A DNA stretch of 39,802 nt. It comes from Bacteroidia bacterium. GTDB taxonomy: Bacteria; Bacteroidota; Bacteroidia; Flavobacteriales_E; Vicingaceae. Below the pieces are notes generated by a model. That model worked only from the letters and a program-made list of their open reading frames with translations. It ran no database searches and was not told where the DNA came from. Position numbers and translations under genes: made by a program. Each line of letters starts with the position of its first letter. The stretch's first letter is position 1. Below are positions 18,034 through 23,163 of this stretch, in pieces. The DNA lies in assembly GCA_030426475.1 (NCBI GenBank), contig JAUHYR010000016.1:1-39802 (forward strand). The letters run 5' to 3'.

Positions 18034-19038
18034 TTATCGGTTGATATGTTGATTTAATTCATCAATAGATGTTTCAAAATCAAAGGCATCGTTTACCTTA
18101 TAGTAATTACCAATATCATAGGTTCTGCCGTAAGCATATTTAGCATACTCTAACCTTGAAGCTTCAAAGCTAAAGGTTTGCATAATTCCTTTTACCTGAG
18201 CAGACGTTAAACAGTTAGAATTAGTAATTTGCTTTGCCATGGTAAGCTTGCTGTCTTCAAAAGATTTAGCATTGATAGAGTTCAAAGCAGACTGATAATC
18301 TGTTTCGCTCATTGGCCAAGGACAACCAATCGGGCCGCTATATCCCGGCATATTGTAGTGAGTTGGTTCATCCACATACACAGGGTCAGAAACAATTTCA
18401 AGACTTGGCTCGGTAGTGGAAACTCCCGTAGAAGTGGTAGTTGAACTGGAAGAGCTAACAACTGTTGTTGATGTAGTGGTAGTTGTAGAGTTCATACCAC
18501 CCATATTATCATTTACATTCACGTTTACATTCATTCCCACTCCATTCATATTCATTCCTACATTTACATTATCTGAAGTACCTGTTGAAGTTTCGGTTAC
18601 TGTAGTTGTTGTTTCAGTAACTACTACTTGTGTTGGTTGTGCAGGAACTGTGGTGTAATGTACAACTGTTTGAGTAGGTGGTGCAGGCGGTGCCTGAGCA
18701 ATTGGTACCATACTTAAAACTCTCATCACATATTCTTCTTTCTTATTTTTCTTTATGCTATAAGAAATTTCTTGCGGACCGTTTTCCGGAGTTAGGTAAA
18801 TAGTTTTATCCAGCTCCGGTAATTTTTGATTTTCAAAAATCACTTTTGCCTTATAGTTACCCATAGGAACATCAGGTATTCTAACATTGGTTTGATAATC
18901 GGCATTTTGAAGAATACCGTTTAAAACCACTTGAAACCTATCGCCATCCTGATTAAAGAAAATTAAGTTTGAATTTTGTGCCGTTAAAGCCATTGAAGAA
19001 ACGAAGGCAATAACAAAAAGAGTAAGTATTTTTTTCAT
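18034..19038 (-). CDS. Exported DUF4476 protein with low-complexity linker
   Basis: A 334-residue exported protein. Signal peptide residues 1-20 end in LTAQ. Residues 22-100 look like a small beta domain (VVLNGILQNADYQTNVRI, VPMGNYKAKVIFE) resembling PEGA-like folds. Residues about 115-220 are low complexity, with P/T/V-rich then M/N/V/G-rich and T/S-rich tracts. The C-terminal ~95 residues match DUF4476: FEDSKLTMAKQ, NCLTSAQVKGIMQTFSFE, RLEYAKYAYGRTYD and NYYKVNDAFDF. DUF4476 is a Bacteroidota family with no assigned biochemical role. The gene stands alone with its own terminator. Confidence 0.8.
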   Translation of the reverse strand: MKKILTLFVIAFVSSMALTAQNSNLIFFNQDGDRFQVVLNGILQNADYQTNVRIPDVPMGNYKAKVIFENQKLPELDKTIYLTPENGPQEISYSIKKNKKEEYVMRVLSMVPIAQAPPAPPTQTVVHYTTVPAQPTQVVVTETTTTVTETSTGTSDNVNVGMNMNGVGMNVNVNVNDNMGGMNSTTTTTSTTVVSSSSSTTTSTGVSTTEPSLEIVSDPVYVDEPTHYNMPGYSGPIGCPWPMSETDYQSALNSINAKSFEDSKLTMAKQITNSNCLTSAQVKGIMQTFSFEASRLEYAKYAYGRTYDIGNYYKVNDAFDFETSIDELNQHINR

Positions 19039-19111
19039 ATTGGGTTGATTTTGAAGTTCAAATTAACAACAATAAATATTGTGCCAAAATAATTTTAACA
19101 GATAATTCAAT

Positions 19112-19945
19112 CTAAATTTCACTAAAAGAAAACGATTCTTTAAATCTTACGCCTTTTTCGGTATGTTGAACTGTGCAGCACTCGTTTACCGAATCATGTT
19201 CAAAGAATAAAATGTATTCTTTATCAGCTGCTTCATTTAAAAATTTTCCTTTTTCATCTAAAGTTAAAAGCGGTCGAGTGTCATACCCCATAACATAAGG
19301 CAAAGGAATATGACCGACAGACGGCAATAAGTCCGCCATAAATACAAGTGTTTTGCTTTTGTACTGAATATGCGGAATCATCATGGCATCGGTGTGACCG
19401 TTAACATACAACAAATCAAACGCATCAAATTTTTCTTTATCCACAAACTTTAACTGTCCCAATTCGTGCATGGGCATAATGTTTTCTTTTAAGAAAGAAG
19501 CCTTTTCTCTGGCGTTGGGTTCGGTTGCCCATTTCCAATGGTCGCTGTTGCTCCAGTAAGTGGCATTTTTAAATGTAGGTTCAAACTTTGTTTTGTCGTT
19601 ATTCCATTTAATTCCTCCGCCACAATGGTCGAAATGTAAGTGCGTTAAAAACACATCTGTAATATCATCTTCCGAAAAACCTTTTTCGTTTAATGATTTT
19701 TTTAGCGAAACATCTCCATGCAAATAGTAGTGGCTAAAAAACTTTTCCGATTGCTTGTCTCCTATTCCGTTATCAATTAAAATTAAACGATTACCATCTT
19801 CAATTAAAAGGCAACGCATGGCCCAGGTACACATATTGTTTTCATCGGCAGGATTGGTTCTGCTCCAAAGTGTTTTAGGTACTACTCCAAACATTGCTCC
19901 TCCGTCTAACTTAAAAAAACCGGTATTGATTACGTGTAAGTTCAT
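19112..19945 (-). CDS. MBL-fold metallo-hydrolase
   Basis: A 277-residue metallo-beta-lactamase-fold hydrolase. The metal motif THLHFDHCGG is near residues 95-104, a downstream histidine is in NGHTDAM, an Asp in FMADLLPS, and a final His in FFEHDS completes the dinuclear zinc site. No signal peptide is seen, so it is cytoplasmic. The arrangement resembles the quorum-quenching lactonase/AttM-like and glyoxalase II-like groups, but the substrate cannot be deduced. It is a single gene. A TAnnTTTG-like element lies just upstream at 19971-19978. Confidence 0.83.
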   Translation of the reverse strand: MNLHVINTGFFKLDGGAMFGVVPKTLWSRTNPADENNMCTWAMRCLLIEDGNRLILIDNGIGDKQSEKFFSHYYLHGDVSLKKSLNEKGFSEDDITDVFLTHLHFDHCGGGIKWNNDKTKFEPTFKNATYWSNSDHWKWATEPNAREKASFLKENIMPMHELGQLKFVDKEKFDAFDLLYVNGHTDAMMIPHIQYKSKTLVFMADLLPSVGHIPLPYVMGYDTRPLLTLDEKGKFLNEAADKEYILFFEHDSVNECCTVQHTEKGVRFKESFSFSEI

Positions 19946-19970
19946 AATTGTTCATTACTGATTATTAGCT

Positions 19971-19978
19971 CAAAGTTA
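19971..19978 (-). promoter_or_regulatory. Possible -7 promoter element TAACTTTG
   Basis: Read on the minus strand, TAACTTTG fits TAnnTTTG and lies 26 bases upstream of the MBL-fold gene start. No TTG/TTTG is seen at the expected -33 distance; instead the upstream side is the first copy of the 29-bp direct repeat. Tentative. Confidence 0.35.
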
Positions 19979-20004
19979 AAAATTTACGGCTTTAAAGCTT
20001 TAGT
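19976..20004. repeat. 29-bp imperfect direct repeat, copy A
   Basis: This copy contains AAAAATTTACGGCTTTAAAG followed by CTTTAGT. It matches copy B at 20422-20450 at 26 of 29 positions in the same orientation. It includes the 10-bp palindrome GCTTTAAAGC. The two copies bracket about 417 bases that hold the A-tract array. Confidence 0.75.
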
Positions 20005-20090
20005 GAATGAACACTATTATGATATAAAACAGCATCCTTTTTATATTTCCTTATAGAAATTTTACATTGCTTAGCTAGTTCCGAACAAGG

Positions 20091-20330
20091 TCGTTCATCA
20101 AAAAAGTAGGTCGGTTCATGTAAAAAGTATGAACGTTGGTGTAAAAAGTATCAAGCTTCATATAAAAAGCATGAACGATGATACAAAAAGTATCAAGCTT
20201 CGTACAAAAAGCATGAACGTTGATACAAAAAGCATCAAGCTTCATATAAAAAGCATGAACGATGATGCAAAAAGCATCAAGCTTCATGTAAAAAGCATGA
20301 ACGTTCATGCAAAATACATGACAAGGGGGC
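20091..20330. repeat. Tandem 21-bp repeat array with phased A5 tracts and hairpin-forming units
   Basis: A5 tracts begin at 20101, 20122, 20143, 20164, 20185, 20206, 20227, 20248, 20269, 20290 and 20311: eleven positions with exact 21-bp spacing (the last tract is A4). Each unit is a 5-bp arm, A5, a second 5-bp arm, and a 6-bp joint that alternates mostly between AAGCTT and AACGTT/AACGAT, so the higher-order period is 42 bp. Arms are self-complementary, e.g. GATAC/GTATC at 20180-20194 and GATGC/GCATC at 20264-20278. A 16-bp perfect palindrome sits at 20295-20310. The outermost units are degenerate. A 21-bp period equals two helical turns, so the A tracts face the same side and should curve the DNA. 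No protein assignment is supported. Confidence 0.92.
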
Positions 20331-20421
20331 TTAAATTATGCCAAAATGGCAGAAAAACCCCTGATAAAGCACTTTTAACGATTTAATACCTATTTTTAAC
20401 TTTCTCGCGTCCGCTTGTGAG

Positions 20422-20450
20422 ATAAAAATTTACAGCTTTAAAGTTTTAGT
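20422..20450. repeat. 29-bp imperfect direct repeat, copy B
   Basis: This copy contains AAAAATTTACAGCTTTAAAG followed by TTTTAGT and matches copy A at 19976-20004 (26 of 29). Sequences outside both copies are unrelated, so the similarity is confined to the 29 bp. The 589-base interval 19946-20534 has no convincing gene besides these repeats and the array. Confidence 0.75.
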
Positions 20451-20485
20451 ATTTGCTAAAAACCATTTAACTTCGGTAACTAATG

Positions 20486-20511
20486 TTAGAAGTAATTAAA
20501 ACTACTTTTAG
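20486..20511 (+). promoter_or_regulatory. Leader hairpin upstream of the orphan gene
   Basis: TTAGAAGTA (20486-20494), an 8-base loop and TACTTTTAG (20503-20511) can form a 9-bp stem with two G-U pairs, ending 23 bases before the ATG at 20535. There is no T run, so it is not a terminator. It could be an mRNA leader structure or part of the promoter region; the sequence does not decide. Confidence 0.35.
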
Positions 20512-20534
20512 CTTTTGTTGGCGGTTATTTAAAA

Positions 20535-21632
20535 ATGAAGAAACTCACTACTATCATATTGACCTTTATCCCGTTATTAATTTGTGCTCATCAAGACAGA
20601 TATTTCACTTATGAATACGATAATGTGACCATAAGATTTAAAACAGGGTTTTTCTTCGAAGAGATAAACAACGTAAAAATCATTGGGCAATATGCTGCGA
20701 CCCTTTCTGACAGATTAGATTATAAAAAACCAATCCTATTAGACTTTATACATGATTATGGACATTCATATAGAGGCAACACTTATAGTTTTCTTAGTAT
20801 CGGCTTAGAAGAATACAAAGTAGTAAGCTACTATGTGCAAAAGTATGATAGTTTATTGGACGAAAACGTTTATCAGATGGTTCCTTCCGACTCAATAGAT
20901 TTCATTAAAGATGTAGAGAAACAAGTTTACTCAATACCAGGATTTAATGAGAAGGAAAGTATTGTAATAAGACAATTTGCTTCTCATTTCAATATTAGAG
21001 AAACATTGAATCTTCTTTCATATGCTCTTACCAATCAAAATGATGTTCGGAAAAAATCTCGATCTCACACTCTATCTAGCTATTTAAGTAACATGTATTA
21101 CGCTTTTGAGTCTGTTCCAAGCGGCATTGTTGATTCTTTAAAATCGGCTAAAATTCAACTCGTTGAAAGTGTATTAAATACCAAAGTATATTGTGAAGTT
21201 GATTCGATAAACCGTAACCAACTTTATTACTCTTATTTCGCCCAAAATGGTAAGTATCAAATATTCGCCTCAATACACGACAAAGAAATATTGCTAGATA
21301 CTCTTGCACAGGTTTATTCATTAAACCCATGGGAATACATGCCAGAAGTACTTTTCGTCTTCGAGACAACTAATCAGATGAGAAGCTACAGTGTAGATAC
21401 TTTTATGGATAATGATGTTAAAAGATCAAGAAAACACCGAATAGAAATTGACCCATACGAGTTTGTAAGAAGTATAAATATAGATTGGCTTGGAGGTGAC
21501 ATTTACTTAATCGACTACAATAACGGTTTTGAATGGTCTCCAGTAAAAAGGCTGATCTATCTCGAAAATGATGATGTAATAATTGATGAATTTGAAGAAT
21601 TTATAGACTCTTACAGAAAAGAAAAAAAATAA
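20535..21632 (+). CDS. Secreted hypothetical protein (no recognised family)
   Basis: A 365-residue protein with a signal peptide (MKKLTTIILTFIPLLICAHQ). The mature part is mixed alpha/beta with many Tyr, Asp and Lys residues and no motif I recognise. There is no lipobox in proper form, no transmembrane segment after the signal, and no type IX tail. The C-terminus is acidic then basic (DEFEEFIDSYRKEKK). It lies immediately after the repeat array and direct repeat B, has no operon partner, and is followed by 172 bases before mpl. Its isolation beside repeats suggests an accessory or recently acquired gene, but this is inference. Confidence 0.62.
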   Translation: MKKLTTIILTFIPLLICAHQDRYFTYEYDNVTIRFKTGFFFEEINNVKIIGQYAATLSDRLDYKKPILLDFIHDYGHSYRGNTYSFLSIGLEEYKVVSYYVQKYDSLLDENVYQMVPSDSIDFIKDVEKQVYSIPGFNEKESIVIRQFASHFNIRETLNLLSYALTNQNDVRKKSRSHTLSSYLSNMYYAFESVPSGIVDSLKSAKIQLVESVLNTKVYCEVDSINRNQLYYSYFAQNGKYQIFASIHDKEILLDTLAQVYSLNPWEYMPEVLFVFETTNQMRSYSVDTFMDNDVKRSRKHRIEIDPYEFVRSINIDWLGGDIYLIDYNNGFEWSPVKRLIYLENDDVIIDEFEEFIDSYRKEKK

Positions 21633-21804
21633 AAACTACCTCCAATAATCGCTACAAAACATGCCCTTAGGGATACGCACCATAAACTAAACATTACCGA
21701 AAACTCCTTTTAAACTCTATTTCAACACTCCCCATTTAACAATTTGTTTTTAAGCTGATGTAAGTTTTCATTTATAAATGCTTACTTGCTTTAAATAAGT
21801 AAAA

Positions 21805-23163
21805 ATGAGAGTTCATTTTATTGCCATTGGCGGAAGTGCCATGCACAACCTAGCTATAGCACTACATAAAAAAGGATTTGAAGTAAGCGGTTCGGATGAT
21901 GAAATCAGAGAACCGTCTAAAAGCCGTTTAGCCAAACATGGTATTTTGCCCGATACTATTGGCTGGCATCCTGAAAAAATAAGCAATGAACTGGATGCCA
22001 TTATTCTGGGCATGCATGCCAGAATTGACAATCCCGAACTCATCAAAGCAAAAGAATTAGGCCTTAAAATTTATTCTTACCCGGAATATATTTATGAGCA
22101 ATCGAAAGACAAAAAGCGAATTGTGGTAGGCGGTAGTCATGGAAAAACCACCATTACTTCCATGATTTTACATGTGCTTCAAAAGCAAAACATGGCGTTT
22201 GATTATATGGTTGGTGCTCAACTGGAAGGCTTTGACACCATGGTTCAACTTTCTGATGCGCCCATCATTGTAATTGAAGGGGATGAATACCTCTCCTCTC
22301 CTATTGACAGGCGACCAAAGTTTCATCTTTATCAACCGCACTTAGCTATACTTAGCGGCATTGCCTGGGACCACATCAATGTATTTCCCACTTTTGAAAA
22401 TTATGTAGAGCAGTTTTCTATTTTTATAGATACCATTGACTTTGATAATGGAGGAAAATTATTTTTCTCACAAAACGATACTACGTTGAATGAACTAGTA
22501 AAATCAAAGCAACAAGAAAATGCCATACCTTACAATTTGCCTGAGTTTTATATTGAAAATGGCATTACTACCATTACTCACAATGGAAAAAAATATGCGC
22601 TGGAAGTTTTTGGTGAACACAATTTACGAAACATTGAAGCTGCCAAAAACATTTGCAAAGAGTTAGGAATACCTGAAGATGATTTTTACACTTCCATTAC
22701 TTCGTTTAAAGGTGCCAACAAACGCCTTGAACTCTTGGCAAGAACCGACAATAAAATTGTGTATTTAGATTTTGCACATTCTCCCTCTAAGTTAAAAGCT
22801 ACTTCACAGGCCGTAAAGCAACAGTATGACGGCTATAAAATAATTGCGGTTTTTGAGCTACATACATTTAGCAGTTTAAATGCTGAGTTTTTGGAAGAAT
22901 ATGCGCATTGTCTGGATATGCCCGATGAAGCTATTGTTTACTTTAACCCACAAACCATCGCACATAAAAAATTAGCAGCCATTACTAACGAACAAGTTAA
23001 AAATGCGTTTGCCAGAGAAGATTTAAAGGTATTGACACATACAGATGAAATCAAAAATTACTTATCTCAAGTAAAAGACGAAAAAGTAGTTTTCTTGTTA
23101 ATGACTTCAGGAAATTTTGGTGGAATGAATCTTAATGAATTAGCTAATGGGTTAATTGGGTAA
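21805..23163 (+). CDS. mpl: UDP-N-acetylmuramate:L-alanyl-gamma-D-glutamyl-meso-diaminopimelate ligase (Mpl)
   Basis: A 452-residue Mur-ligase-family enzyme that attaches recycled murein tripeptide to UDP-MurNAc, using ATP, in cytoplasmic peptidoglycan recycling. The Rossmann-like N-terminal domain starts MRVHFIAIGGSAMHNLA. The ATP P-loop is GGSHGKTT (109-116). EGDEYLSSPIDRRPKF and AILSGIAWDHINVFP are characteristic of Mpl rather than MurC. The C-terminal domain begins near residue 310 (LDFAHSPSKLKAT). It is convergent with the minus-strand rho group. Confidence 0.88.
   Translation: MRVHFIAIGGSAMHNLAIALHKKGFEVSGSDDEIREPSKSRLAKHGILPDTIGWHPEKISNELDAIILGMHARIDNPELIKAKELGLKIYSYPEYIYEQSKDKKRIVVGGSHGKTTITSMILHVLQKQNMAFDYMVGAQLEGFDTMVQLSDAPIIVIEGDEYLSSPIDRRPKFHLYQPHLAILSGIAWDHINVFPTFENYVEQFSIFIDTIDFDNGGKLFFSQNDTTLNELVKSKQQENAIPYNLPEFYIENGITTITHNGKKYALEVFGEHNLRNIEAAKNICKELGIPEDDFYTSITSFKGANKRLELLARTDNKIVYLDFAHSPSKLKATSQAVKQQYDGYKIIAVFELHTFSSLNAEFLEEYAHCLDMPDEAIVYFNPQTIAHKKLAAITNEQVKNAFAREDLKVLTHTDEIKNYLSQVKDEKVVFLLMTSGNFGGMNLNELANGLIG

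Follow-up and report, generated by a model that had tools for sequence, protein, structure and literature searches.

A phased 21-bp intergenic array in a Bacteroidia genome is probably a lineage-specific satellite of the constant-size kind

A class of bacterial satellites with units of 20-21 nt is reportedly defined across bacteria in a J. Bacteriol. paper of 2020 (JB.00229-20). Tandem repeats of 20-21 nt, constant in size, variable in sequence and non-coding, were described in many bacterial groups by Subirana and Messeguer (2021, PMC8161180), as species-specific families of which several occur per genome, some as doubles of 40-41 nt, with a short motif common to every unit and without a known function. 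The satellite length equals two helical turns, as the authors noted, and they suggested either that a protein polymerises on the repeats and requires a constant step, or that the repeats are transcribed as small RNA (PMC8161180). The array considered here is like these satellites in having a 21-nt unit (with 42-nt doubles), many copies and a length of two helical turns, and in being non-coding. It is unlike the satellites as detailed in that paper for Bacillus in its Bacteroidia-like host, in carrying an A5 tract in each unit and in the near-palindromic form of the unit; the last two features are not general even within this genome. The original prediction had known of no named element with this design, a view that the satellites already described, of constant size (20-21 nt) and variable sequence, do not bear out.

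Comparison can also be made with REP/BIME elements and their RAYT (Y1_Tnp) transposases, which the array resembles as a set of short intergenic palindromes in dispersed copies. Its units, however, are strictly tandem, whereas REP palindromes lie scattered and owe their spread to a transposase. Y1_Tnp (PF01797) was present in six of the seven other genomes searched and was not found in this genome (97.7% complete), and membership of the REP/RAYT system therefore fails. Plasmid iterons and partition sites, such as the 43-bp repeats of F sopC, are tandem, dyad-bearing and bound on one face of the DNA, and the array shares with them a tandem arrangement of dyad-containing units whose length is close to two or four helical turns. 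It differs from them in being chromosomal, with three copies at unrelated sites, and no replication or partition gene was found among its neighbours.

The window, that is, the whole stretch of DNA analysed, comprises 39,802 nt of contig C16 from a source genome of 2.87 Mb in 139 contigs. Within it the array occupies positions 20091-20330 (neither strand assigned), 240 bp without an indel, as a leader unit followed by ten 21-bp units that alternate as a 42-bp higher-order unit, in 21-bp steps with no slippage. Tandem Repeats Finder (TRF) returned a period of 21 at 20114-20308 (9.3 copies) and a period of 42 at 20115-20314 (4.8 copies), both with 0% indels, and self-identity was 0.72 at lag 21 and 0.89 at lag 42, as against 0.33 at lags 20 and 22. 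Eleven A5 tracts in exact 21-bp phasing had been predicted; the phasing held, but the count did not, as ten A5 tracts are present on the + strand (20101-20294; starts at 20101 + 21n for n = 0-9, namely 20101, 20122, 20143, 20164, 20185, 20206, 20227, 20248, 20269 and 20290) and the eleventh, at 20311, reads AAAAT. The first tract is an A6, from 20100. AAAAA is kept in every unit except the last, an AANNTT-like core lies between the tracts, and the consensus unit is TTSATRY-AAAAA-GYATSAA, with odd and even units alternating between CAT..ATG and GAT..ATC. At the left end, on the + strand, the leader CGTTCATCAAAAAAG (20092-20106) is common to the paralogous copies on contigs C89 and C85.

The position of the array is intergenic and non-coding, and a protein-coding reading of the frame 20129-20386 was rejected on inspection of the units, since differences from the C89 copy are mostly non-synonymous. 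To its left, on the - strand and pointing away from it, is a gene for a metallo-beta-lactamase-fold protein (19112-19945; PF00753, E = 1.1e-12), conserved in 30 of the 31 genomes searched, the window's own counted. To its right, on the + strand, are genes for a 365-aa protein without a Pfam match (20535-21632) and for a Mur ligase family protein (21805-23163), and the products encoded near the array are an MBL-fold protein, DUF4476, an unknown protein and the Mur ligase family protein. In six relatives, one of them from another family, the Mur ligase and metallo-beta-lactamase genes are arranged divergently next to each other, 112-177 bp apart and with no array; here 1.86 kb (19945-21805), holding the array and the gene of the 365-aa protein, separates them. 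A 31-bp direct repeat flanks the array on the + strand (19974-20004 and 20420-20450, 446 bp apart), and the rest of the genome holds no strong copy of it; being only 90% identical, and too long, it is unlikely to be a target-site duplication. At the start of the contig (1-541) the 3' end of a 23S rRNA gene is followed by 5S rRNA, an assembly break at an rRNA operon.

A search for further copies across this genome and its relatives, a check of the kind that the original prediction had proposed, yielded two paralogues in the genome but no credible match among 45 further genomes from the family. The first, C89:10796-10985, is 87% identical to the window array and in register with it from the first unit (unit 0), with 25 differences in 190 bp among which loss of pairing is commoner than gain; the second, C85:572-655, is truncated. 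TTTCCTCCYAAAACCATCATCGTTCATCAAAAAAGCATG is common to the C89 and C85 copies, and only its last part is kept in the window array. No significant intergenic match was obtained among the 45 family genomes, and a weak match in one relative (G029) was rejected as the coding end of a helicase gene. Phage and plasmid collections gave no match, nor did viral contigs searched by pattern, and pattern searches of the genome collection gave chance-like matches only, besides a Bacteroidetes MAG (L071) with a 21-bp array of its own.

Across the class, the pattern A5-N5-AANNNT occurred in 46 of 395 genomes, about as many, judged by eye, as matched the reversed control; the design is thus not evidently commoner than the control, and no conserved design across the class is claimed. 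Similar-looking 21-bp arrays, with an A-tract followed by an AANNTT-like core, were seen in G138, G304, G126, G175 and G308, often more than one per genome, which demonstrates no more than the recurrence of 21-bp arrays within the class. BLAST matches in G138 and G304, both members of a single other genus, look similar and were set aside, their E-values being inflated by shared periodicity. In the source genome itself, further arrays of 21/42 bp, of unrelated sequence and some without any A-tract, were noted at L138:7573-7872, L148:8359-8686, L159:10616-10904, L179:11963-12390, L186:12383-12679 and L124:5020-5270. As a separate observation, a 21-bp array of G138 (L075:4923-6260) adjoins a Y1_Tnp gene among REP-like palindromes (GTAGTTTCAAACTAC), and downstream in the same region (L075:10425-11792) are long arrays of composite repeats of 101-156 bp (TCTCACAGACCTGCCCGTATCAGGCGGGTG...).

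Within the source genome, an autocorrelation scan for periods of 15-69 was run on sixty stretches (889 kb, 31% of the genome), most of them picked by contig number and blind to content. The five strongest non-coding arrays in this 0.89-Mb sample (match at least 0.61) all have a period of 21 or 42 and lie on C5, C15, C117, C133 and C32 (50616-50904), the one on C5 being within a stop-to-stop frame at a contig end and judged non-coding. Coding arrays of the sample have periods of 27, 51 and 69, and a further 21-bp array, on C55, was found by pattern. By eye, the sequences of these other 21/42-bp arrays are unrelated, and often without A-tracts. For the arrays of the genome as a whole, the gene flanks are divergent (C16, C117 and C32, the C32 entry being a separate 20-bp array), convergent (C85, C15 and C133) or tandem (C89 and C55). 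When 400 kb of two relatives of the same family was scanned, only coding arrays were obtained and none that was non-coding with a 21/42 period.

The most probable identity of the window array is an intergenic satellite, specific to its lineage, of the class with a constant size (20-21 nt) and a variable sequence. This identification rests on the unbroken 21/42 register, on the recurrence of the sequence and its leader at two further intergenic sites, on unrelated arrays with the same step, and on arm drift that is not compensated. What distinguishes such satellites was found here: a regular unit of 20-21 nt (or 40-42) in at least four copies, a non-coding location, a family confined to its species when compared with 45 other family genomes, a short motif in each unit, and several unrelated arrays of the same length in one genome (C5, C15, C32, C55, C117 and C133 besides C16, C89 and C85). 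Against this identification stand weak arrays with other periods (C14, 22 bp, match 0.54; C63, 64 bp, match 0.56), in a genome sampled at 31%. The array is a real and ordinary member of a published, unexplained kind, and of the possibilities raised in the original prediction the expansion-prone satellite was supported, since the genome carries several non-coding 21-bp arrays that are specific to the lineage, this one among them. Arrays of this sort would lengthen through slippage or through unequal exchange, and copying would spread them.

A neutral minisatellite is itself a form of the satellite explanation, and departs from it only on the point of whether the register is read by anything. 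To the proposal that the 21-bp size reflects a mutational process, with slippage or strand exchange favouring two turns and no cellular function, we give even weight. The absence of the array from 45 other family genomes, its presence where relatives have nothing, and the free drift of the paralogues (25 differences in 190 bp, pairing more often lost than gained) all favour it. Taken alone, however, neutrality fails to explain why unrelated non-coding arrays have one period, or why no such array was found in the sampled relatives. Within the satellite identification, a function in which a protein reads the register or the shape of the DNA matters is possible but doubtful. The feature retained may be the two-helical-turn step, which would place every unit on the same face of the DNA, where bends could add, or where a nucleoid-associated protein of low sequence specificity might bind, or polymerise, in register.

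The phased A5 tracts would make the DNA of the window array strongly curved, and an element acting through such curvature has been considered: tracts repeated every two turns might produce a large bend in a divergent promoter region, serving as an upstream bend or as a nucleoid-protein site. The vector sum of A-tracts, taken at 10.5 bp per turn, is larger for the array than for any other 210-bp stretch in the window, and the ten tracts add completely. The predicted end-to-end ratio of the array in a wedge model with literature parameters is 0.51, in the lowest 1% of the window, whose mean is 0.84. The arrays on C89 and C55 are similarly phased and also have a low predicted ratio, and the window array does lie between divergent genes. 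However, the C5 and C117 arrays have the 21-bp step without any A- or T-tract of 4 or longer, the wedge model gives no unusual bend for those on C5 and C15, the C85 paralogue lies between convergent genes and the C89 paralogue between tandem genes, and the same divergent gene pair is array-free in relatives. A curved-DNA element thus seems unlikely, its bend being a prediction from literature wedge parameters. Since C5 and C117 share the step without A/T tracts, bending cannot be what keeps the period. Of the curved platform first envisaged, the exact phasing and a strong predicted bend survive for this array, but not a role for the bend as keeper of the period; the constant feature among the arrays is the 21-bp register, not the bend.

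The arms of the units, as predicted, are near-complementary around the A5 tract, with 53 of 70 possible pairs Watson-Crick and a further 9 G-U. A second dyad centre (AAGCTT or AACGTT) also exists, 10.5 bp away, but it is not independent evidence, because one dyad together with a 21-bp translation forces such a centre. Consensus dyad symmetry of the array was moderately above that of column-permuted units (p=0.0145), and over 25 arrays it likewise exceeded column permutation (Fisher p = 3e-8), with the reservation that some of these are interrelated or were found by patterns that may favour dyads; the same test on five other arrays of this genome gave 1.3e-3. Covariation of the arms, which had drawn interest in the original prediction, did not stand. 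Pairing within units (90/126 Watson-Crick) showed no excess over 3' arms dealt among units (p=0.39) or dealt inside the odd and even classes (p=0.97), and in twelve arrays from six genomes, among them C16 and C89, with the best axis used for each, no clear excess appeared (p 0.06 to 1.0), the ten further arrays adding no covariation. Unit by unit between the C16 and C89 copies, 18 arm pairs have changed, 15 of them on one side only, with pairing lost in 8 and gained in 4, and a compensatory change from pair to pair occurred in only one of the 18. The example originally given, GATAC/GTATC versus GATGC/GCATC, comes from units 4 and 8, and units 3, 5, 6 and 7 mix these states, with A-C mispairs. 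The sole survivor of the claim is the odd/even alternation of CAT-ATG and GAT-ATC, which suggests a single ancient double change that was amplified along with the 42-bp unit. As the arms drift without compensation, the pairing of the hairpins seems to be left over from the founding unit and not to be a maintained fold.

A structured non-coding RNA, in which the array is transcribed into a functional rod or chain of hairpins, is accordingly very improbable. Folding on both strands, one of the checks proposed at the outset, did give values well below shuffles (z = -8.6 for the + strand and -8.3 for the - strand), and in the arms of the two full copies G-U pairs outnumber A-C (16 versus 9), a mild skew. 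Near-palindromic arrays fold well on both strands without selection, however, which accounts for the strong folding here, and the covariation part of that check failed in C16 and the other arrays tested, with the single compensatory change between paralogues. The sister array on C5 folds worse than shuffles (z +2.5), and an Rfam search of the window returned 23S and 5S rRNA only and nothing at the array. A reading as tandem intrinsic terminators on the - strand, each a palindrome then T5, is also highly unlikely: the last inter-tract palindrome GCATGAACGTTCATGC (20295-20310, - strand) followed by TTTTT does fit a terminator, and on C89 there is a similar site downstream of a gene that stops 11 bp short of the array, but this is the only terminator-like site in the array, with one qualifying site per array and 1 found against 1.4 expected by shuffling in 19000-21700, transcription of both neighbours runs away from the array, so that no window gene reads into it, and only for the C89 and C85 paralogues, not for C16, is the T-rich strand downstream of a gene end.

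In summary, the interesting part of the locus is the step shared across unrelated sequences, not hairpin covariation, and the question that it poses is why unrelated bacterial satellites share one length. This genome is well suited to that question, with five strong 21/42-bp arrays in one third of it, with and without A-tracts, so that the step can be separated from curvature. It is conceivable, though we think it rather improbable, that the 21-bp register as such is read by a nucleoid protein of this lineage, one that binds or polymerises at sites on one face and two turns apart and has low sequence specificity, with the unrelated arrays as interchangeable docking platforms in which only the step is selected. 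If one protein bound all the arrays, this would be a new way of organising the nucleoid; if none did, their size would need to be explained by a mutational mechanism.
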